From Holdemanella porci (lineage in GTDB: Bacteria; Bacillota_I; Bacilli_A; Erysipelotrichales; Erysipelotrichaceae): 52,067 nucleotides of DNA. The notes below the pieces were generated by a model. That model was not told where the DNA came from. It did not search any database and worked only from the letters and a program-made list of their open reading frames with translations. Below, piece after piece: positions 10,108 to 22,256 of this stretch. A program made the translations under genes and the position numbers. Location: the NCBI RefSeq assembly GCF_009696075.1, contig NZ_VUMR01000008.1:1-52067 (forward strand). The letters are read 5' to 3'. How positions within the stretch are numbered: the stretch's first letter is position 1; each line of letters starts with the position of its first letter.

Positions 10108-11028
10108 TTAGTCTTCTTTTTTACCAGCTAACTCTTTTAATGCTTTTAAAGAATTCACTTTCTTTGAATATAAAGTCAATGGGGCAGAACTTGTATCACC
10201 AATCGCTGTTAAATCATATCCTTGTGCTTTACATTCATTTTCTAAATACGCTTTGTGTTGAAATGAGTTCAAATCAATTTCGCCATTATTTAAAGCTTCA
10301 TTTGGTAAGTTATATGCATCAAATACAACTACATCTAAATAGATTCCAGAATTTTCATCATCTAATACTTTTTGTACCGCTCTAAATGTATCGGCAGAAC
10401 CACAAGTACCAATCTTAATAACTTTCTTTCCATCTGAACTTGATTGATATCCTTCAATATCGCTCACAAAATTTTTATTGACTGTATAATCTTTATCATA
10501 TTCAAATGCAGGAACACTTGCTCCTTTATTCTTTTCTAGAATGTATTCAGCTACCAACTGACTTTGGTATGCCTTTATTACTTTTTGATAATCCTCATTA
10601 TCTTTATCGGCAGTACGCGCAACGATCACATTAATAAATGGATTATCACTTCCTACTTCTTGTACTTCCGTAATTAAACCATCCTTTTTAGGTTTTAATC
10701 CAGCTGGAATCGCATATGTTCCATTGATTGTGGCTGCTCCAAAATCATCCAAAGTCGAAACTAATGTATTGGCTTGTGTAGGAACAATTTCAATATTGTA
10801 TTTATACTTCGTAACATCCTTCAATTCTGGAGTCCAACCAGCCTTGTCATCCACTTCAATCAAGCCAGCTTTTTCTAGAAGCAATAACCCTCTTCCACCA
10901 TTTGTGGCATCACTTGGAATACCAATTTTTACAGGTTCACTTGATGACTTTGATGAACATCCTGTAAGTAATGTTGTAGCTACTAAGCCTGCTGTTAAAA
11001 ATGTTTTAAATATTTTATTTGTCTTCAT
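10108..11028 (-). CDS. metQ: Methionine-binding lipoprotein MetQ, circularly permuted
   Basis: A 306-residue lipoprotein with signal peptide and lipobox LTGC24, expected to bind methionine (or a related amino acid) for the MetNI transporter. The order of its two parts is reversed relative to ordinary MetQ. Residues 33-174 match the usual C-terminal part (IPSDATNGGRGLLLLEKAGL, then INGTYAIPAGL, then NPFINVIVAR). After a polar linker (about 175-202), residues 203-306 match the usual N-terminal part (VIKIGTCGSADTF, NLPNEALNNGEIDLNSFQHK, LYSKKVNSLKALKEL). The frame is intact, has a good ribosome site, and sits 18 nt after metI, so it is not a pseudogene. A shared terminator follows. Confidence 0.92.
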   Translation of the reverse strand: MKTNKIFKTFLTAGLVATTLLTGCSSKSSSEPVKIGIPSDATNGGRGLLLLEKAGLIEVDDKAGWTPELKDVTKYKYNIEIVPTQANTLVSTLDDFGAATINGTYAIPAGLKPKKDGLITEVQEVGSDNPFINVIVARTADKDNEDYQKVIKAYQSQLVAEYILEKNKGASVPAFEYDKDYTVNKNFVSDIEGYQSSSDGKKVIKIGTCGSADTFRAVQKVLDDENSGIYLDVVVFDAYNLPNEALNNGEIDLNSFQHKAYLENECKAQGYDLTAIGDTSSAPLTLYSKKVNSLKALKELAGKKED

Positions 11029-11046: not shown

Positions 11047-11745
11047 TTATTTATGAAATAATTCTTTATTCGTTGTTGCTTTTGACAATGTATTCCCCAA
11101 TAATTGAATCAACGAAACAATGATCAATAATAAGATCACACATAAATTCACAACATCTTGATAATGTAAGTTTTGTCCATAATTAATTGCGAACGAACCA
11201 ATTCCACCAGCACCAACTGCACCTGCAGAAGTTGTTAATCCAATCAATGAAATAGCCGTAATGGTTGTTACACGAATCAAATCCGGTAACGCCTCATGCA
11301 GATAAACACGAAAGATAATTCCTAGTGTTGAGCTTCCCATGCTTCTAGCGGCCTCTATTTTTCCTGGATTTACATCCGCTAATGCCGTTTCGACTTGTCT
11401 TGTGTAGAATGGAACCGCTCCAAAGACTAATGGAACAACAGCCCCTTTGACTCCAATCGAAGTACCCGCAATACTTCGTGTTAACGGAATCAAGAAAATC
11501 AACAGGATGATAAATGGTACGGCTCTAAACACATTCGTGATAACTTCTAAAATAAAATGAATAATCCGATTTGGCTTAATCCCATCTGTCTTTGTTACAA
11601 TCAATGAAATTCCAAAAGCACCTCCAATTAGTAATGTAATCAAGCCTGCGATGAAAAACATTTGATACGTTGCAGTCAATGCTGTTAAAAATATATCCCA
11701 ATAATTGGCAACATTTGGAAAGAAATCCACTATAAATTTAGGCAT
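11047..11745 (-). CDS. metI: Methionine ABC transporter permease MetI
   Basis: A 232-residue membrane protein with about five transmembrane helices and the ABC-permease EAA loop (EAARSMGSSTLGIIFRVYLHE), which docks on MetN. GAVGAGGIGSFAINYG near the C terminus is typical of MetI. The ATG at 11745 lies inside the end of metN (8-nt overlap), with GGAGGTG upstream. It follows metN and precedes metQ, the usual N-I-Q order. Confidence 0.95.
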   Translation of the reverse strand: MPKFIVDFFPNVANYWDIFLTALTATYQMFFIAGLITLLIGGAFGISLIVTKTDGIKPNRIIHFILEVITNVFRAVPFIILLIFLIPLTRSIAGTSIGVKGAVVPLVFGAVPFYTRQVETALADVNPGKIEAARSMGSSTLGIIFRVYLHEALPDLIRVTTITAISLIGLTTSAGAVGAGGIGSFAINYGQNLHYQDVVNLCVILLLIIVSLIQLLGNTLSKATTNKELFHK

Positions 11746-12784
11746 GATGAATCACCTCCACTTTTACATTAGATTCATGTAGAAAATCTATGGCACGCTG
11801 TACATTTTCTTTAGCCCCTTCAATTGAAGCAATAATGCCACCCAAAGCATCCGCATTAATGACATCTACATTGGCCAACATGATATTTACATCCACATTA
11901 TATTCACGAGATATTTTTGAAATGGTTGCACTACCAACACTATCTCTAGTGAATGTAAGTTTAACTAATTTACTATCTGTAGGAATAATTGTCTTATTCT
12001 CAATCAACTTCGTAATATTCGATAATGCAGAAGACGAGTTGATAAATTTTTTGGTAATCTCTTCTTTAGGATTGGCGAAGATATCATATACATCTCCTTC
12101 TTCAACAACCTTACCATTCTCCATAACTGCCACACGGTTTGCGATAGATTTAATCACACTCATTTCATGTGTGATCAAGATAATTGTTATTCCTAATCTT
12201 TTATTTAAATCCCTCAATAACTTTAGAATGGATTCTGTCGCATCTGGATCTAAGGCAGAAGTTGCTTCATCAGAAAGTAACACCTTAGGATTGTTTGATA
12301 AGGCTCTTGCGATGGCTACACGCTGTTTTTGTCCACCCGATAATTGTGATGGATACACATATTTTTTATCTGCCAAATCTACAAGATCTAATAATTCATC
12401 CACACGAGTCTCAATTTCTTTCTTTGATAACCCCGTATATTTTAATGGGTACGCCACATTATCAAATACAGTGCTTCGATCTAATAAATTAAAATGTTGA
12501 AAGATCATTCCTATGGATCGTCTTAACTCTCTTAATTTCTTTTGACTTATATCTAAACTTCCTTGATTTGCACTTACTTTTCCAAACCCTTCAATTTCAA
12601 TACTTCCAGAATCTGGAATCTCTAAAAAGTTCAAGCATCGAACCAAAGTACTTTTACCAGCACCAGAATATCCAATCACCCCATAGATTTGCCCACTTTC
12701 AATATGTAGTGAAACATCATCTACGGCATGTACGTCTGCATTCTTTAAATGATAGGTTTTATCCAAATGTTCTATATTAATCAT
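11738..12784 (-). CDS. metN: Methionine ABC transporter ATP-binding protein MetN
   Basis: A 348-residue ATPase. Walker A is GYSGAGKST (38-46), the signature is LSGGQKQR, and Walker B is VLLSDEATSALD. A C-terminal NIL/ACT-like domain (about 265-348) in other MetN proteins binds methionine and shuts the transporter (trans-inhibition), adding post-translational feedback. GGAG lies 8 nt before the ATG. The gene is preceded by a Met-rich leader ORF, antiterminator and terminator, so its transcription is probably controlled by attenuation. Confidence 0.96.
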   Translation of the reverse strand: MINIEHLDKTYHLKNADVHAVDDVSLHIESGQIYGVIGYSGAGKSTLVRCLNFLEIPDSGSIEIEGFGKVSANQGSLDISQKKLRELRRSIGMIFQHFNLLDRSTVFDNVAYPLKYTGLSKKEIETRVDELLDLVDLADKKYVYPSQLSGGQKQRVAIARALSNNPKVLLSDEATSALDPDATESILKLLRDLNKRLGITIILITHEMSVIKSIANRVAVMENGKVVEEGDVYDIFANPKEEITKKFINSSSALSNITKLIENKTIIPTDSKLVKLTFTRDSVGSATISKISREYNVDVNIMLANVDVINADALGGIIASIEGAKENVQRAIDFLHESNVKVEVIHHA

Positions 12785-12804: not shown

Positions 12805-12831
12805 AAAAAAAGCCGAGGACTTTTCCCCGGC
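12805..12831 (-). terminator. Attenuator terminator of the metNIQ leader
   Basis: On the minus strand, GCCGGGG-AAAAGT-CCTCGGC (7-bp stem with one G-U) is followed by seven U residues, all before the metN ribosome site. It lies 10 nt after the stop codon of the leader ORF. Its 5' arm is also needed by the competing antiterminator. Confidence 0.88.
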
Positions 12832-12873
12832 AATCGCACACTTAAATAAGCGACAAACGAATTGAAAACCGGG
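12826..12873 (-). promoter_or_regulatory. Antiterminator of the metNIQ leader
   Basis: Region 2 lies within leader codons 18-23: CCCGG (12869-12873) and CAATTCG (12858-12864). It can pair with region 3: CCGGG (12826-12830) and CGATTG (12831-12836, with one bulged base). Region 3 contains the terminator's 5' arm, so the two structures exclude each other. A ribosome stalled on the Met codons leaves region 2 free; one that reads on disrupts it. Confidence 0.75.
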
Positions 12874-12925
12874 TCACATTTTTTAACATATACATTTGCA
12901 TCATTGACATCATCATTGTTTTCAT
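12842..12925 (-). CDS. Met-rich leader peptide of the metNIQ operon
   Basis: A 27-codon ORF with a perfect AAGGAGG site 8 nt before its ATG. The peptide begins MKTMMMSMMQMYML: 8 of the first 13 residues are Met, using consecutive ATG codons 4-6 and 8-9. The ORF ends in TAA 10 nt before a strong terminator, which is followed by metN. It has the layout of a trp- or his-type leader peptide, with methionyl-tRNA as the sensed species. The last Met codon (12887-12889) is 13 nt before the antiterminator arm, so a ribosome stalled at any Met codon should leave that arm free. I know of no characterised example for methionine (inference). Confidence 0.85.
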   Translation of the reverse strand: MKTMMMSMMQMYMLKNVTRFSIRLSLI

Positions 12926-12950
12926 TTTCGTTTCCTCCTTGCATGTTTGT

Positions 12951-12979
12951 ATTCTACAAGAAGGTTATGTTATTGTCTA
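12951..12979 (-). promoter_or_regulatory. Promoter of the metNIQ leader transcript
   Basis: On the minus strand, TAGACA (12974-12979) and TAGAAT (12951-12956) are 17 nt apart. The predicted start near 12944 is just before the leader peptide's ribosome site. The promoter lies 30 nt after the LysR-type gene. Confidence 0.8.
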
Positions 12980-13009: not shown

Positions 13010-13930
13010 TTATTTATTACTAAAATAATCCTTCATCGTTTGAATATACGTACTACCAATCTCACTCAACACTGTATTTTTCCTTGTGATATACCCAATT
13101 TCCATCATAGAATTGGGATTCTCTACATTCGCTTCATAAGGCACAACTACATAGTCATCCCCATTCAAATCACGACTAATAATTCCAGAACATAAAGTAT
13201 ATCCATTCAGTCCTCTCATTAAATTCAGCATCGTAGCACGATCATTCACTTGAATCTTTCTTGGAAATTCATTTTCAACCAATATCTCCTCTGCCGTATA
13301 CATCGAAGGATTATCCCCTTGATCAAAAGTCATATTTGGATATGGCAATAATTCTTCATACGTAATTGATTTTTTCTTGGCAAGAGGATGCCCCTTATAC
13401 AAATACACAAAGGCATCGCAATTGGCTAATTTATGAAATTCTAAATTCCACTCATCAAATTGTTTCATCATAAAACGACGATTATAGTTGGATAAATATA
13501 AGATTCCTATCTCACTTAAAGAATTACCTACATCCTCAATAACATGCATCGTCTTTGTTTCGCTAATCGCAAAATCATATTTAGAAGTCCCATACTTCTT
13601 CACTGTATCCACAAATGCTTTGGTCGCAAATGAATAGTGCTGGCACGAAACACGAAACTTATTTCTTCGTAAACTTACATCTTCATAACGATTTTTTAAT
13701 AATTCATATTGTTGGTACAACTGTCTTGCGTATGTTAAAAATTCTTGTCCTTGTTGCGTCACAGTGACTCCATGACTTGTACGATTAAAGATTTGAATAT
13801 CCAGTTCTTTTTCAAGTGATTGAATGGCAGACGTTAAAGTAGGTTGAGACACAAAAAGCTTTTCAGCCGCCTTATTCATAGATTTCTCATCTGACACCGT
13901 TAATACATAAAGTAATTGTTGAAGCGTCAT
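13010..13930 (-). CDS. LysR-family transcriptional regulator
   Basis: A 306-residue regulator. The N-terminal winged HTH (residues 1-60; SMNKAAEKLFVSQPTLTSAI) is standard, and the C-terminal substrate-binding-fold domain senses a small molecule. The ATG at 13930 has AAAGGAGA upstream. The gene is directly upstream of the metNIQ promoter on the same strand, with no terminator between, and follows the M20 amidohydrolase. LysR proteins often control neighbours, so metNIQ or the M20/ABC genes are candidates; no operator was identified. Confidence 0.93.
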   Translation of the reverse strand: MTLQQLLYVLTVSDEKSMNKAAEKLFVSQPTLTSAIQSLEKELDIQIFNRTSHGVTVTQQGQEFLTYARQLYQQYELLKNRYEDVSLRRNKFRVSCQHYSFATKAFVDTVKKYGTSKYDFAISETKTMHVIEDVGNSLSEIGILYLSNYNRRFMMKQFDEWNLEFHKLANCDAFVYLYKGHPLAKKKSITYEELLPYPNMTFDQGDNPSMYTAEEILVENEFPRKIQVNDRATMLNLMRGLNGYTLCSGIISRDLNGDDYVVVPYEANVENPNSMMEIGYITRKNTVLSEIGSTYIQTMKDYFSNK

Positions 13931-14029: not shown

Positions 14030-15235
14030 TTAATTCTCTTTTTGATGTTCTACATGCCAAGCATGATCCTCTTTAACTTTCGCAAGTTCTTCTGGATTTT
14101 CAAATAATTCGAGTGCCGTAAAAGCCAATGCTTTTGCCCCTTTGACAATCGCATCCATTGCCTTTTGACTACATGAAGCATTGACCATATCTTGACTATG
14201 TCCTGCAATCTGTACATCTGTAATACTAATATGTGGCTGAATCGTAGGTACAACCTGACTAATGTTACCCACATCACTACTTCCTGGCATTACCACGTCT
14301 TCTACATGTTTTACAGTATTGCCAAGTTCTGTAATATATTTTTCATAGATTGCATCTAAAGAAGGTGTTAACACCATATTTTCTACAAGATTTTGATACA
14401 ACTTCATACTCGATGTACAACCCGTCTGTAAAGCGGAGCCCTTCACAATATTCTCTACTTTTTCATATAACTCATGCAACGTATCAATATCGGCAGCTCG
14501 AATATAATATTTGGCCTTTGTGTATTCTGGAATGACATTGGGAGCTGTTCCCCCATCAACAATTACACCATGAATACGAATGCGATCTGTTAGTTGTTGT
14601 CGTAAAACACCAATGGCTGCATATGTTAAGATCTGCGCATCCAACGCATTGATTCCATCTTGAGGACATCCTGCTGCATGCGCCGGTTTTCCCCAAAATT
14701 CAATATCTACAGGTGCACATGCATAATTACGCGTACTTAATCCATCTTCTGGACCTGAACCTGGATGCACGCATAGGGCAAAATCCACATCTTTTAAATA
14801 TCCCTTCTTCACAAAAGAACCTTTGGCACTTCCATTTTGTCCACCCTCTTCTCCAGGCGTACCATATACACGTACTTCTCCGCCAATTTGATCCACGACA
14901 CTTTTTAAAGCAGCACCCGCAAGAGAAGAAGTAGCACCAAACACATTATGTCCACATCCATGGCCTAAACCTGCAAGAGCATCATATTCTGCTAGAAAAA
15001 CAACCGTAGGACCTGGTTTATTACTTTTGTAGGTTGCCGCAAAGCCTGTACGATGTCCTGCCGCTGGTAATTCAATCTCAAAGCCTTCTTTTTTTAATTG
15101 TTCACTCAAGGTTTGAGAAGCAAAATATTCAAAGTCACTAACTTCTGGCTTGGCATGAATAGCCAAAGAAATATCTTGATATACTTTTGCGTTTGTATCT
15201 ATAAATTGAGAAATTTGATTCTTTAATTCTGACAT
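14030..15235 (-). CDS. M20D family amidohydrolase/peptidase (AbgB-like)
   Basis: A 401-residue metallo-amidohydrolase. Metal-site segments are visible: GHGCGHN, GTPGEEGG and the C-terminal AGHSQDM. A lid domain lies in the middle (about 180-300; PAHAAGCPQDGINALDA). Family members remove acyl or aminobenzoyl groups from amino acids, for example p-aminobenzoyl-glutamate hydrolase; the substrate here is unknown. The ATG at 15235 has AGGAGGAA upstream, while a longer frame runs through the promoter. It lies downstream of an amino acid ABC transporter but has its own promoter. Confidence 0.9.
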   Translation of the reverse strand: MSELKNQISQFIDTNAKVYQDISLAIHAKPEVSDFEYFASQTLSEQLKKEGFEIELPAAGHRTGFAATYKSNKPGPTVVFLAEYDALAGLGHGCGHNVFGATSSLAGAALKSVVDQIGGEVRVYGTPGEEGGQNGSAKGSFVKKGYLKDVDFALCVHPGSGPEDGLSTRNYACAPVDIEFWGKPAHAAGCPQDGINALDAQILTYAAIGVLRQQLTDRIRIHGVIVDGGTAPNVIPEYTKAKYYIRAADIDTLHELYEKVENIVKGSALQTGCTSSMKLYQNLVENMVLTPSLDAIYEKYITELGNTVKHVEDVVMPGSSDVGNISQVVPTIQPHISITDVQIAGHSQDMVNASCSQKAMDAIVKGAKALAFTALELFENPEELAKVKEDHAWHVEHQKEN

Positions 15236-15263
15236 AAAATAGTTCCTCCTAAAAGTTGAGTCT

Positions 15264-15292
15264 ATTGTACAAAGAACAAGTGCTATATTCAA
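15264..15292 (-). promoter_or_regulatory. Promoter of the M20 gene
   Basis: On the minus strand, TTGAAT (15287-15292) and TACAAT (15264-15269) are 17 nt apart. It follows the terminator of the upstream ABC operon. Confidence 0.75.
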
Positions 15293-15340
15293 ATTCTATT
15301 TATTTATATCTAGTTATAAATTATTTTTATATTTTAAACA

Positions 15341-15363
15341 AAAAGAAAAACGGCTTAGCCGCT
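15341..15363 (-). terminator. Terminator after the amino acid ABC operon
   Basis: A short stem AGCGGC/GCCGTT (one G-U) with a TAA loop is followed on the minus strand by TTTCTTTTTG. It touches the stop codon of the binding-protein gene. Confidence 0.65.
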
Positions 15364-16145
15364 TATTCTTTCGTTAGATCCTCACCAAAATACTTGATAG
15401 AAATCTTAGATAAAGTTCCATCTTCTTTTAGTTCTTTTAAAGCCTTATTTACAGCTTTCTTTAAAGAGGTATTATCATCCCCTTTTACCATTGGGATGGC
15501 ATAGGGTGTAGATTCTTTAGATTGATCAACAATTTTAAATGAACTATCCTTTGTCGTCTGAAGATAATCATTGATAGAAGTAGCTGCATTGATTGTCGCA
15601 TCCACACCACCACTCTTTACAAGATCCATACATTTCGTTAAATCATCTACGCCTTTTACAGTAGCCCCATAGTCTTCACCCAATTCCATATAAGTAGATC
15701 CAATCGAATTGGCAGTTGTCTTTCCTTTTAAATCATCAAACGAAGTAATTGTCGTATTATCATTACGAACAACTAAGACTGTGTGATCATACGCATAAGG
15801 TGTAGAAAAATCAAATTTCTTTTCTCTTTCCTTTGTGATATCGACACCATTAATAACTAAATCATACGTACCCGTTGATAATCCAGTTAATAATCCATCC
15901 CATTTGCCTTCCACAATATTGGCTTTTACGCCTAATTTTTTGGCAATATTCTTAGCGACTTCCACATCAACACCTATCAATTGATCATCCTTATCATGAT
16001 AAGAAAATGGTTGCCAATCTCCTTCTAAACCAATTGTGATTTCGCCTTTATCTTGAATTGCATCTAAATGATCCTTACTAGATCCACATCCTGCTAAAGT
16101 AAATACCATAGTTGCACTTAATAAACCTGCTAACAATTTTCTCAT
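15363..16145 (-). CDS. Polar amino acid ABC transporter substrate-binding lipoprotein
   Basis: A 260-residue lipoprotein with lipobox LAGC (Cys about 20) and a family 3 (PBPb) binding fold. ITIGLEGDWQPFSYHD starts the first lobe, with GVDVEVAKNIAKKLG and a DLVINGVDIT segment after it, typical of glutamine/cystine/histidine-type receptors. The ligand cannot be assigned from sequence. It is the last gene of a permease-ATPase-receptor operon with 1-3 nt gaps. Unlike MetQ in this window, its lobe order is normal. Confidence 0.92.
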   Translation of the reverse strand: MRKLLAGLLSATMVFTLAGCGSSKDHLDAIQDKGEITIGLEGDWQPFSYHDKDDQLIGVDVEVAKNIAKKLGVKANIVEGKWDGLLTGLSTGTYDLVINGVDITKEREKKFDFSTPYAYDHTVLVVRNDNTTITSFDDLKGKTTANSIGSTYMELGEDYGATVKGVDDLTKCMDLVKSGGVDATINAATSINDYLQTTKDSSFKIVDQSKESTPYAIPMVKGDDNTSLKKAVNKALKELKEDGTLSKISIKYFGEDLTKE

Positions 16146-16146
16146 C

Positions 16147-16887
16147 TTACATTTCCTCTTTCCTTAAAAAATCTTTTGTTCGTTCTTGTTTCGGATTTTC
16201 AAAGAAATTCTTTGAACTGCCCTCTTCAACAATTTTCCCTTTTTCCATTAAAATCACATGACTAGAAACATTCTTCGCGAAAGCCATCTCATGCGTGACC
16301 ACAACCATAGTCATTCCTTCATTAGCCAGTGTTTTCATAACACTTAAAACTTCTTGAATCAACTCTGGATCAAGAGCTGAAGTCGGTTCATCAAAATAAA
16401 TAATGTCTGGATTTGTTGCTAAAGCTCTTGCGATTGCGACACGCTGTTGTTGTCCACCCGATAATTGTGAAGGATAATGAGACGCACGATCTTTCATTCC
16501 TACTTTTTCAAGCATCTGCATACCAATCACATTGGCCTCTTCTTTAGAAATATTTCGCGCTACAGTAAGACCTAATGTTACATTTTGTAGGGCTGTTTTA
16601 TTCGCAAATAAATTGTAATTTTGAAATACAACCCCTGTATGCTTTCTAAGATGGGCAACATCCTTCTTTGATGTATTTGATAAATCATAAGATTTTCCAT
16701 TAAAAATCATAGTTCCTGCATCAGCTGTCTCTAAATAATTAATACAGCGAAGTAAAGTTGTCTTACCTGATCCTGAAGGACCTAATATCGCAATGACATC
16801 GCCTTTATTGACCGTAAGATCCATTCCATTCAAAACATTTAAATTTCCAAATGATTTATGAATATCTTTAATTTCTAATAAAGCCAT
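16147..16887 (-). CDS. Polar amino acid ABC transporter ATP-binding protein
   Basis: A 246-residue ATPase of the GlnQ/HisP type. Walker A is GPSGSGKT (36-43), the Q-loop is in VVFQNYNLF, the signature is LSGGQQQR, Walker B is [12 protein letters not shown], and the H-loop is VVTHEM. It powers uptake by the adjacent permease. The start lies 3 nt after the permease stop and its own stop 1 nt before the receptor start, so it is clearly one transcript. Confidence 0.95.
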
Positions 16888-16890
16888 ACT

Positions 16891-17547
16891 CTATCTCCCC
16901 GCCTGATAATAATTCAGCTTCTTTTCACCCCAAGCTTGCAGCCAAGTTAAAACTGTACAGAAAATCAAATAAACTAAAGCCACTTCTATGTATAACTGCA
17001 TAAACTGATAAGTTCTTCCGGCAATTCTTTCTGTCTGCATAAACATTTCTGTAACTGTGATATTGGCAGCTAAAGACGTATCTTTTACAAGTGAAATCAA
17101 GTTATTAAACAATGATGGAAATGCACTTCGAAAAGCTTGCGGTAAAATAATATGCGTCATAATCTGCATATAGCTCATTCCTACACATAGTCCAGCTTCC
17201 ATTTGTCCTTGTGGTACACTTTCAATCGATCCGCGAATGGTTTCTGCACAATACGCGCCTGTATTTAATGAAAATACAATAATCGCTGCCGTAATAGCCG
17301 ATATTCTCACACCAATCGATTGCATCCCAAAATACATAATAAATAATTGTACAAGCATAGGTGTTCCTCTAAATATCCAAATATAGAATTGAACAACATA
17401 CTTCATAACCGGAACTTTCGCATATTGTATCAAGGCACAAAAAATGGCCAACACCATAGCTAGAACAAAAGAAATGATTGCCAAAGGTAATGTCATTACA
17501 ATTCCCGAAATAAATATCTTTGGGAATGATTCTAAAAACAATTCCAT
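16891..17547 (-). CDS. Polar amino acid ABC transporter permease
   Basis: A 218-residue permease of the HisM/GlnP family. It has about five transmembrane helices, the FRGTPMLVQLFIMYFG segment, and an EAA loop (GQMEAGLCVGMSYMQIMTHIILPQAFR). AGGGAGG precedes the ATG. It is the first gene of the operon, preceded by a promoter whose spacer contains a perfect inverted repeat. Confidence 0.94.
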   Translation of the reverse strand: MELFLESFPKIFISGIVMTLPLAIISFVLAMVLAIFCALIQYAKVPVMKYVVQFYIWIFRGTPMLVQLFIMYFGMQSIGVRISAITAAIIVFSLNTGAYCAETIRGSIESVPQGQMEAGLCVGMSYMQIMTHIILPQAFRSAFPSLFNNLISLVKDTSLAANITVTEMFMQTERIAGRTYQFMQLYIEVALVYLIFCTVLTWLQAWGEKKLNYYQAGR

Positions 17548-17574
17548 TCTTTTCCTCCCTAAAATCTTTATACT

Positions 17575-17605
17575 ATTCTACACCCTAAAGTGAACTTTAG
17601 GTCAA
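17575..17605 (-). promoter_or_regulatory. Promoter of the amino acid ABC operon with an embedded operator-like palindrome
   Basis: On the minus strand, TTGACC (17600-17605) and TAGAAT (17575-17580) are 19 nt apart. CCTAAAG-TTCA-CTTTAGG (17583-17600), a perfect 7-bp inverted repeat, fills the spacer. A bound repressor would block RNA polymerase. The cognate protein is unknown. Confidence 0.5.
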
Positions 17606-18541
17606 CTAAATCAATCCAAACGATTTTAATATCGTTAACCAGAATGTAATACTAAAAGCACTAAGCAATGTTGTCAGCATCACAACACTTGATGTTAAAA
17701 CACCTTTATGCCCCATACTTTTAGCCATCACAAAACCAGATACGGTTGTACTTGAACCACACATAATCAAAATGGCAACTAAGGCTTGATTTCTGAATCC
17801 TAATAAAGCTGCAATTGGTAAGAAGATCGTACAAAAACCAATTAACTTCATAAATGTACAAAATAAAGATGGTTTCAATTCTCCTTTCGCCTGATCAAAA
17901 TCAAAAGTGGCTCCCATCGCCATTAAACCCAGTGGTGTTGCCGTACTTGCAATCATAGAAATTGTTTTATTGATAACTTGTGGCAGTTTAAACGGTAATA
18001 TACTAACAAGTACACCTATCACAATGCCTAGAATTAGTGGATTCTTTATAATTCCAATGAATGTTTTCTTATAATCAACCTTCGATTGTTCAGCCTTAAA
18101 GAAAGATAGAATCACAACAGATACTACGTTATAAACAAATACAACACTCATCAACATCAATGGTGCAACACCTACATCTGGATAAATATTTGATGTTAAT
18201 GCAAGTCCTAATAAGGCAGCACTACTTCTGTAACAAGCTTGAATAAATTCACCTTGAATCGCTTTATCTTTTAATCGCAATGAAAATAATATCGATAATA
18301 GAATACTAATTAGAGTAGATACAACACAAAATACGACAAACTTTGTATCCCAAAGATCTTTAAAATTAGATTTAGACACATCGACAAACAACAATAGTGG
18401 CAATGATACTTTAAAGACAAATGAATTCAACTTTAATGCCAATGTATCATCTAGAATATTCATTTTATTCAAGAAATAACCGACAACCATCAATAGAAAG
18501 ACGGGAATCGTTGCATTTAGGCTAAATAATAAATTTTCCAC
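17606..18541 (-). CDS. AEC family (auxin efflux carrier-like) transporter
   Basis: A 311-residue membrane protein with about ten hydrophobic segments. MVVGYFLNKMNILDD near the start and the C-terminal CGSSTTVSGFVMAKSMGH are typical of Firmicutes AEC/malate-permease-like proteins. These export or import organic acids or amino acids; the substrate is unknown. The start is GTG at 18541, preceded by GGAGGG. It is divergent from the fucO-like gene and directly precedes the promoter of the amino acid ABC operon. Confidence 0.85.
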   Translation of the reverse strand: MENLLFSLNATIPVFLLMVVGYFLNKMNILDDTLALKLNSFVFKVSLPLLLFVDVSKSNFKDLWDTKFVVFCVVSTLISILLSILFSLRLKDKAIQGEFIQACYRSSAALLGLALTSNIYPDVGVAPLMLMSVVFVYNVVSVVILSFFKAEQSKVDYKKTFIGIIKNPLILGIVIGVLVSILPFKLPQVINKTISMIASTATPLGLMAMGATFDFDQAKGELKPSLFCTFMKLIGFCTIFLPIAALLGFRNQALVAILIMCGSSTTVSGFVMAKSMGHKGVLTSSVVMLTTLLSAFSITFWLTILKSFGLI

Positions 18542-21000: not shown

Positions 21001-22095
21001 TTAATATTCCAATTTTTTAACCTTTTCCCAAGTAAATTGAGGATCACCAAAATGTCCATAGCATGATGTTTTGTGGTAAACTGGCTTTCTTAAATCCAAT
21101 TCGGAAATGATGTTTCCTACTTCAAAATTGAAGTTTTTCTTAACGATTTCTAATAGTTTTTCATCATCAAACTTACCTGTTCCAAAAGTGTCTACACATA
21201 AAGATACAGGTTGTGCTTTACCAATTGCATACGCAACTTCAACTTCACAACGACGAGCTAAGCCATTGGCAACAATGTTTTTAGCTACATAACGAGAGTA
21301 GTAAGCAGCACTACGGTCTACTTTCGTAGGGTCTTTACTAGAGAAGCATCCTCCTCCAATACGTCCACGTCCACCATATGTATCACATACGATTTTACGT
21401 CCTGTCGTTCCTGAATCTCCCCATGATCCACCTACAACGAAGCTTCCAGATGGGTTGATTAAATATTTTGTGTTTTCATCTAAATATTTTTCATCAATGC
21501 AAGGTTTAATCACTTCATTCATGATCAATTCTTTAATTTCTTCTTGTGTAATATCTTTTGAATGTTGAGTTGAAACAACGATTGTATCAATACGTTTGAT
21601 TTCATCATTTTCATATTCAACAGATACCTGTGTTTTTCCATCTGGTTTTAATAAATCTGGATGAGCACGACGTACTTTTGTCAATTGACGAGCTAAAAGG
21701 TGTGCATAATAGATAGTTAATGGCATATACTCATCATTTTCATCACAGGCATAACCAAACATAATACCTTGGTCACCAGCACATACTTCATCACGATTTA
21801 CGGCATTGTGAATTTCAGGACTTTGTTGATTCACAACAGTATGTACATGATATTCTTCTGTGTATCCAATACGTTTGATTTCATTCAATGCGATTGTTTC
21901 ATAATCCAATTCTGCCTTTGTATTACATTCACCATAAATTAACACAAAATCATCTTTAATTGTACATTCAACAGCCATATTTGAATATGGGTCTTGAGCT
22001 AATGCAGCATCTACGATTGCGTCGGCAATTTGGTCACAAATTTTATCTGGATGACCTTCAGTAACACTTTCACTTGTAAAAATATAGTCTTTCAT
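21001..22095 (-). CDS. metK: S-adenosylmethionine synthetase
   Basis: A 364-residue enzyme making SAM from methionine and ATP. It begins MKDYIFTSESVTEGHPDKIC, has AGDQGIMFGYA and GSFVVGGSWGDSGTTGRKI (triphosphate-binding region), and ends FTWEKVKKLEY. The length is slightly under the usual 380-395. The start is the ATG at 22095 with GAGGAG upstream; an in-frame extension to 22134 would run through the riboswitch terminator and is rejected. It is controlled by the SAM-I riboswitch upstream. Confidence 0.97.
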   Translation of the reverse strand: MKDYIFTSESVTEGHPDKICDQIADAIVDAALAQDPYSNMAVECTIKDDFVLIYGECNTKAELDYETIALNEIKRIGYTEEYHVHTVVNQQSPEIHNAVNRDEVCAGDQGIMFGYACDENDEYMPLTIYYAHLLARQLTKVRRAHPDLLKPDGKTQVSVEYENDEIKRIDTIVVSTQHSKDITQEEIKELIMNEVIKPCIDEKYLDENTKYLINPSGSFVVGGSWGDSGTTGRKIVCDTYGGRGRIGGGCFSSKDPTKVDRSAAYYSRYVAKNIVANGLARRCEVEVAYAIGKAQPVSLCVDTFGTGKFDDEKLLEIVKKNFNFEVGNIISELDLRKPVYHKTSCYGHFGDPQFTWEKVKKLEY

Positions 22096-22123
22096 TTTGT
22101 CTCCTCTTCTCTTACTTATCCAT

Positions 22124-22150
22124 AAAAAAAACATACTTTAAGAAGTATGT
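22124..22150 (-). terminator. Riboswitch-controlled terminator of metK
   Basis: On the minus strand, ACATACTT-CTTA-AAGTATGT is followed by seven U residues, 29 nt before the metK ATG. Its 5' side (plus-strand 22139-22148) can instead pair perfectly over 10 bp with 22162-22171, which overlaps the 3' strand of aptamer helix P1. This is the usual S-box antiterminator arrangement. Confidence 0.9.
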
Positions 22151-22161
22151 TACAAATCTTT

Positions 22162-22256
22162 ATACTTCTTATCGCTGTTAGCAGGACCACCTTAACATAT
22201 CGTCAGGTTGGCGTGAAGTCAACGAGCTAACTCTCTACTTCAACTCTGGATAATTT
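22162..22256 (-). promoter_or_regulatory. SAM-I (S-box) riboswitch aptamer
   Basis: Read on the minus strand, TTATCCAGAG opens the aptamer and GATAAG closes P1 (22249-22253 with 22169-22173). AGAGA and AGCTC form the P2 equivalent, GTTGA occupies the kink-turn position, and GCCAACC then AAGGTGG make P3, in the order of the SAM-I consensus. Several positions differ from consensus (GTAGAGA for GGAGGGA) and the P4 region is compact. SAM binding should release the downstream terminator and lower metK expression. Confidence 0.85.

Follow-up and report, generated by a model that had tools for sequence, protein, structure and literature searches.

Known and proposed attenuators of methionine genes

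Methionine genes of the Bacillota are usually described as being under the control of S-boxes and Met T-boxes. The S-box, or SAM riboswitch (RF00162), attenuates Met/SAM genes through binding of SAM, and the Met T-box (RF00230), found at metN in both Erysipelotrichaceae and Lachnospirales, is an RNA that itself senses uncharged tRNA, with no translated leader. In the classical trp, his, leu, phe and thr attenuators, a short ORF close to the promoter carries a run of the cognate codons and is accompanied by an intrinsic terminator and a competing upstream helix, all ahead of the cognate operon. Exchange of T-boxes and leader peptides is known for some amino acids other than methionine, e.g. at hisS/hisZ in bacilli (PMC2965389).

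For methionine itself, the earlier leader proposals in the open-access literature are C. jejuni MetL, C. jejuni CJsORF19 and S. lividans metL. In C. jejuni, MetL lies upstream of metBA and was proposed to be a Met-codon attenuator, with an RNA that ends shortly past the stop codon (PMC3847290) and with ribosome profiling support in the form of a start-codon signal (PMC11955535). A Met leader was also proposed for a metQ-like gene of the same species, with CJsORF19 (MMYQMR) lying ahead of it (PMC11955535). In S. lividans TK24, metL was predicted to encode a leader peptide upstream of metNIQ (PMC8079986). An experimental test of a Met leader peptide was not found in the open-access literature.

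The locus described here lies on the minus strand of the window, i.e. the whole 52,067-nt stretch of Holdemanella porci DNA that was analysed, and consists of a short Met-rich ORF followed by metNIQ. The short ORF, the run of cognate codons, the intrinsic terminator and the cognate downstream operon of the classical attenuators are shared by this locus in the classical order and spacing, together with a probable competing helix, but the amino acid is Met, the antiterminator is weaker than the terminator at equilibrium, the host belongs to the Bacillota, and the operon encodes a transporter instead of a biosynthetic pathway. Like C. jejuni MetL, the window has a Met-codon leader proposed to attenuate Met genes, although MetL has three Met codons only and belongs to the Campylobacterota. 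S. lividans metL is likewise proposed for a metNIQ operon, but its transcript is leaderless, its peptide MSTTSDRTPATEATTTPGARCMCRRMCAF holds two internal Met and three Cys, and a typical Rho-independent terminator is missing. The Met T-box shares with the window leader the gene, the input (tRNA-Met charging) and the output (terminator read-through), but is absent from the window locus, whereas the S-box shares the attenuation of Met/SAM genes in Bacillota. The suggestion of the initial annotation that no Met leader-peptide attenuator is known was too strong in view of these three earlier predictions, and the window leader is not wholly unprecedented.

Judged from sequence, the metNIQ leader is very likely a methionine-specific, ribosome-mediated transcription attenuator that senses charged elongator tRNA-Met. 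The evidence for such an attenuator comprises the anatomy of the locus, conservation in an ortholog, the enrichment of Met runs specifically upstream of metN, and the absence of a T-box or S-box; from these we infer the transcription start, translation, stalling, antitermination and Met response of the leader.

Architecture of the metNIQ leader

The promoter, the AAGGAGG site, the 27-codon ORF with 8 Met in 13 codons, the U7 terminator 10 nt past the stop codon and metNIQ were all found where the initial annotation had placed them, on the minus strand:

13010-13930, minus strand: lysR-type regulator gene, directly upstream of the leader; the order lysR-leader-metNIQ also occurs in the closest ortholog locus (L119/L229)
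12951-12979, minus strand: candidate sigma-70 promoter, TAGACA (12979-12974), 17-nt spacer, TAGAAT (12956-12951), between the lysR end and the leader; 10 of 12 consensus matches
12934-12940, minus strand: Shine-Dalgarno (SD) sequence AAGGAGG of the leader ORF, 8 nt ahead of the ATG, read directly
12842-12925, minus strand: leader peptide ORF MKTMMMSMMQMYMLKNVTRFSIRLSLI and stop, 27 codons, 8 Met in the first 13; backed by an in-frame homologous leader in L119 and an enrichment test
12868-12873, minus strand: probable antiterminator 5' strand CCCGGU (codons 18-20), pairing with 12826-12831; CCGG at the homologous L119 codon, shuffle p 0.04-0.07
12826-12831, minus strand: probable antiterminator 3' strand GCCGGG, common to the terminator 5' arm
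12805-12831, minus strand: intrinsic terminator, stem 12831-12824/12819-12812 (8 bp, 6 G-C), loop AAAG, U7 at 12811-12805, -14.3 kcal/mol
11738-12784, minus strand: metN, methionine ABC transporter ATPase, ATG at 12784; TIGR02314, E 1.3e-117, 392.6 bits, below the curated cut-off of 499.7
11047-11745, minus strand: metI, methionine ABC transporter permease; NF008049, E 1.5e-53, below the curated cut-off
10108-11028, minus strand: metQ, methionine-binding lipoprotein with its halves in permuted order; profile match

The leader carries its own SD, a run of Met codons and then a terminator before metN, three features that mark leader-peptide attenuators, while the promoter is a consensus match only. 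One terminator was found in the region against 0.1 expected, and the leader together with its terminator is well supported. The promoter-like pair is present as had been claimed but is not significant alone, as three promoter-like sites were found where 3.0 were expected. A 55-aa ORF overlapping the leader (12944-12777) was rejected because it has no SD.

MetQ of the window looks circularly permuted, its first half corresponding to profile positions 99-236 of PF03180 (NlpA lipoprotein) and its second half to the N-terminal part. The same order is found in the operon of the closest ortholog and, by eye, upstream of metN in L040. Further upstream in the window (14030-18541, minus strand) lie an M20-type amidohydrolase, a cystine-like ABC importer (substrate-binding protein, ATPase and permease) and an auxin-efflux-type permease, possibly a cluster for sulphur amino acid uptake. 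In L015 and L124, metN directly follows an apparent amidohydrolase gene like that of the window.

The methionine run and its conservation

The Met run of the window leader is far beyond chance. With the local base composition, at least 7 Met in 12 codons would arise at a given start with a chance of about 3e-9. At least 5 Met in 12 codons were found in 9 of 188 distinct metN-upstream regions but in only 2 of 2432 control stretches of the same length drawn from the same loci, and at least 6 in 4/188 against 0/2432; none of 1880 shuffled regions reached 5. A search of the whole 2.07-Mb genome for the pattern ATGATGATG-N(0-12)-ATGATG gave four occurrences, one being the leader; the other three lie in unrelated contexts and look interior to ordinary genes, not like leader ORFs.

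The closest MetN found among 273 genomes is that of L119 (69% identical), where lysR, leader and metNIQ follow in the same order and an SD, a leader MKNKCGFIKMMMCMYRRNIRCPSRSRFF with its stop, and a terminator are present. A gap-free stretch of 20 codons, running to a common stop, was obtained when the two leaders were aligned globally. Met codons 9, 11 and 13 of the window are Met in L119 (3/3), while the other residues agree at 2 of 16 positions (R19 and R23), and the CCGG of the antiterminator strand stands at the same leader position. The regulatory Met codons are conserved between these two leaders, in a comparison with one close ortholog only. The expectation of a conserved Met run upstream of metN in relatives was borne out by this homologous leader; elsewhere in the family mostly T-boxes occur. 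Beyond L119, no leader was found among the metN loci of Erysipelotrichaceae scanned, and in a genome of the same genus (G021) the sole metN is a 45% paralog without such a leader.

The neighbouring lysR gene allows two further readings of the locus. The terminator might merely end lysR transcripts or set a fixed metNIQ level, with the Met-rich ORF a product of chance or drift: lysR is co-directional and ends at 13010, no other terminator was found between 13010 and 12831, and the antiterminator is statistically weak. Against the Met enrichment far past chance, the leader conserved in frame in L119 and the recurrence of independent leaders at metN in other phyla, such an arrangement is highly improbable. 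Alternatively, the LysR-type regulator itself could be the main Met sensor and the leader of little effect. It lies directly upstream of the leader in both the window and L119, and a LysR-like ORF, read from the sequence, seems to precede metN in L169, a locus without a Met leader; but a regulator of this kind leaves the Met run and the terminator unexplained, and its primacy is given very little credence, even if both layers of control could coexist. Attenuation by the leader peptide remains the preferred reading.

Absence of T-box and SAM riboswitch at the window metN

The T-box (RF00230) and SAM riboswitch (RF00162) covariance models gave no match upstream of the window metN, even at E up to 5, and no T-box was found upstream of metN in L119, L039, L044 or L045. 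In the Erysipelotrichaceae, T-boxes precede 64 of the 77 metN loci scanned (14/17, 19/20, 17/20 and 14/20), two of them about 1 kb upstream, and most of the next relatives of the window MetN (60-64% identical) carry them. At the putative specifier position, which was inferred from the pattern, ATG follows GAA-N in 56/64 motif hits. The genome of the window has 19 T-box matches elsewhere, so that it uses T-boxes, just not at metN. Its only SAM riboswitch match, a full-length model match with a terminator-like hairpin behind it, lies upstream of metK (21001-22134) at window positions 22166-22256 on the minus strand and is sub-threshold, with 36.4 bits against a gathering value of 44.4.

Within the Erysipelotrichaceae, one Met sensor (the T-box) seems to have been replaced by another (the leader peptide) at metN. 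Inside a single family, a translated leader appears to do the job of a T-box at one and the same gene. This apparent exchange of RNA sensors is the most interesting part of the finding, and natural pairs, the window and L119 versus L120-L132, make it directly testable.

Folding of the leader RNA and proposed mechanism

The alternative helix that had been proposed between leader codons and the terminator 5' arm exists in the folding models. Codons 18-20, CCCGGU (12873-12868), pair with GCCGGG (12831-12826), and together with inner pairs the fold reaches -15.2 kcal/mol, the best one before the terminator 3' arm exists. The last Met codon is separated from the antiterminator strand by 13 nt, a spacing that was confirmed, and the RNA left free by a ribosome at Met13 starts beside CCCGGU. 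The helix is, however, not thermodynamically dominant. Once the full terminator is available, the terminator plus a small hairpin wins (-19.0 kcal/mol), and equilibrium folding gives the terminator a probability of 0.97 even when codon 13 is occupied by a ribosome; antitermination would therefore have to be kinetic. Compared with shuffled sequences, the window antiterminator shows a modest excess (p 0.068 for gain and 0.040 for total), and that of L119 is no better than shuffles (p 0.18/0.27). On these models the window antiterminator is probable.

In the proposed mechanism, the leader RNA would start just after the -10 box and be translated at once from the strong SD. With charged elongator tRNA-Met, the ribosome would cross the Met codons to the stop and cover or clear codons 18-23, and when Met is plentiful the hairpin 12831-12812 would end transcription ahead of metN. 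When Met is scarce, the ribosome would stall within codons 4-13, the Met run, and its front would lie some 13 nt past codon 13, leaving CCCGGU free to capture the terminator 5' arm as it emerges, so that the terminator would not be finished in time and metNIQ would be transcribed. Since Met has a single codon, which also serves as the start codon, such a device must read the elongator, not the initiator, tRNA-Met, and the window leader poses this specific question of elongator versus initiator reading. Attenuation of metNIQ by stalling at Met codons, as originally suggested, gains sequence-level support from L119, where the Met run, the reading frame, the stop and the antiterminator strand are conserved, from the absence of a T-box and from convergent leaders at other metN genes.

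Recurrent leaders at other metN loci

Leaders rich in Met or in Met and Cys, most of them with a strong terminator, were also found ahead of further metN genes, namely those of an uncultured Clostridia MAG (L039), Agathobaculum (L044/L160), Lachnoclostridium phytofermentans (L045) and the Lachnospirales loci L170, L174, L176 and L177, and a second metN of genome G626 (L168). A different Met-rich leader, MFIVNARMSGRMCMNMLYYAQMLPDRQNMKLL, was observed in L298, an 82% MetN relative of Agathobaculum L044/L160, and most Flavobacterium metN loci examined are preceded by a Met/Cys leader. The hairpin of L176 is strong but lacks a U-run, and this locus was counted as a leader only, and Parasutterella L050, whose Met-rich ORF end has no matching terminator, was not counted as an attenuator.

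Mapped onto the MetN tree, the leader label requires a minimum of 8 changes along well-supported branches, hence several gains (or losses); the leaders of these lineages are unrelated and several origins are needed. Attenuators with Met (often Met and Cys) leaders probably form a widespread class with repeated origins ahead of metNIQ among Bacillota and Bacteroidota, and in Erysipelotrichaceae they would have taken the place of the Met T-box with the same input (tRNA-Met charging) and output. Leaders with Cys recur in other lineages, which points to a common form of sulphur amino acid sensing overlooked by annotation, which misses these leaders because no Rfam family matches the window leader or any other metN leader found.

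The presence of Cys in many of these other leaders also means that the signal may be broader than Met, and the same anatomy would be expected if the translated leader sensed Met or SAM through its nascent chain, as an arrest peptide, or responded to generally slow translation instead of to uncharged tRNA-Met. But the run consists of Met codons, as codon starvation predicts, and residues other than Met and Cys vary freely between L174 and L177, the window and L119, and L160 and L298, unlike those of sequence-specific arrest peptides; sensing of this kind is very unlikely. Motifs rich in Met, or in Met and Cys, can bind Cu(I), and the small protein could have a function of its own, e.g. the binding of copper or other soft metals, and merely be cotranscribed with metNIQ. 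The length and most of the sequence of the leaders vary, and in the metN-seeded survey a terminator often follows the Met run; such a separate function is extremely unlikely. Reading of tRNA-Met charging by the ribosome is retained as the preferred explanation.

Folding of the other leaders gave a mixed picture. The antiterminators of L160, L168 and L170 are no better than shuffles (p_gain 0.5-1.0), and that of L045 gave p 0.03/0.015. In L177, the terminator has a folding probability below 0.1 as long as the ribosome occupies the Met-rich part and 0.93 once it is past; in L174, the values are mostly below 0.5 and 0.93, a switch less sharp than that of L177. Both leaders end in a YSHPGK motif, in whose codons CUCCC pairs with GGGAG of the terminator. 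Between the two, Met/Cys positions are kept at 10/11 against 15/27 for the others (p 0.04; p 0.01 before the terminal motif). The Lachnospirales leaders L174, L175, L177, L045 and L170 are Cys-rich as well as Met-rich, and their signal may extend beyond Met to sulphur amino acids more generally.

In Flavobacterium (L087, L108 and L231-L252), a conserved leader of 22-32 aa, like MKKxNQKMNNYYxxSMMCCxxVMxFxDLAYI, with a terminator GAAAGCCUUUC...GAAAGGC, was observed at most metN genes examined. Its Met/Cys core is kept, and a CUGGCUU stretch can pair with AAGCC of the terminator. The codon-position bias is weak (1425, 1516 and 1797 differences by position), and these leaders are not put forward as carrying a strong coding signal. 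The CUGGCUU of the leader end is retained even in L088, whose ORF stops earlier, which suggests a constraint at the RNA level.
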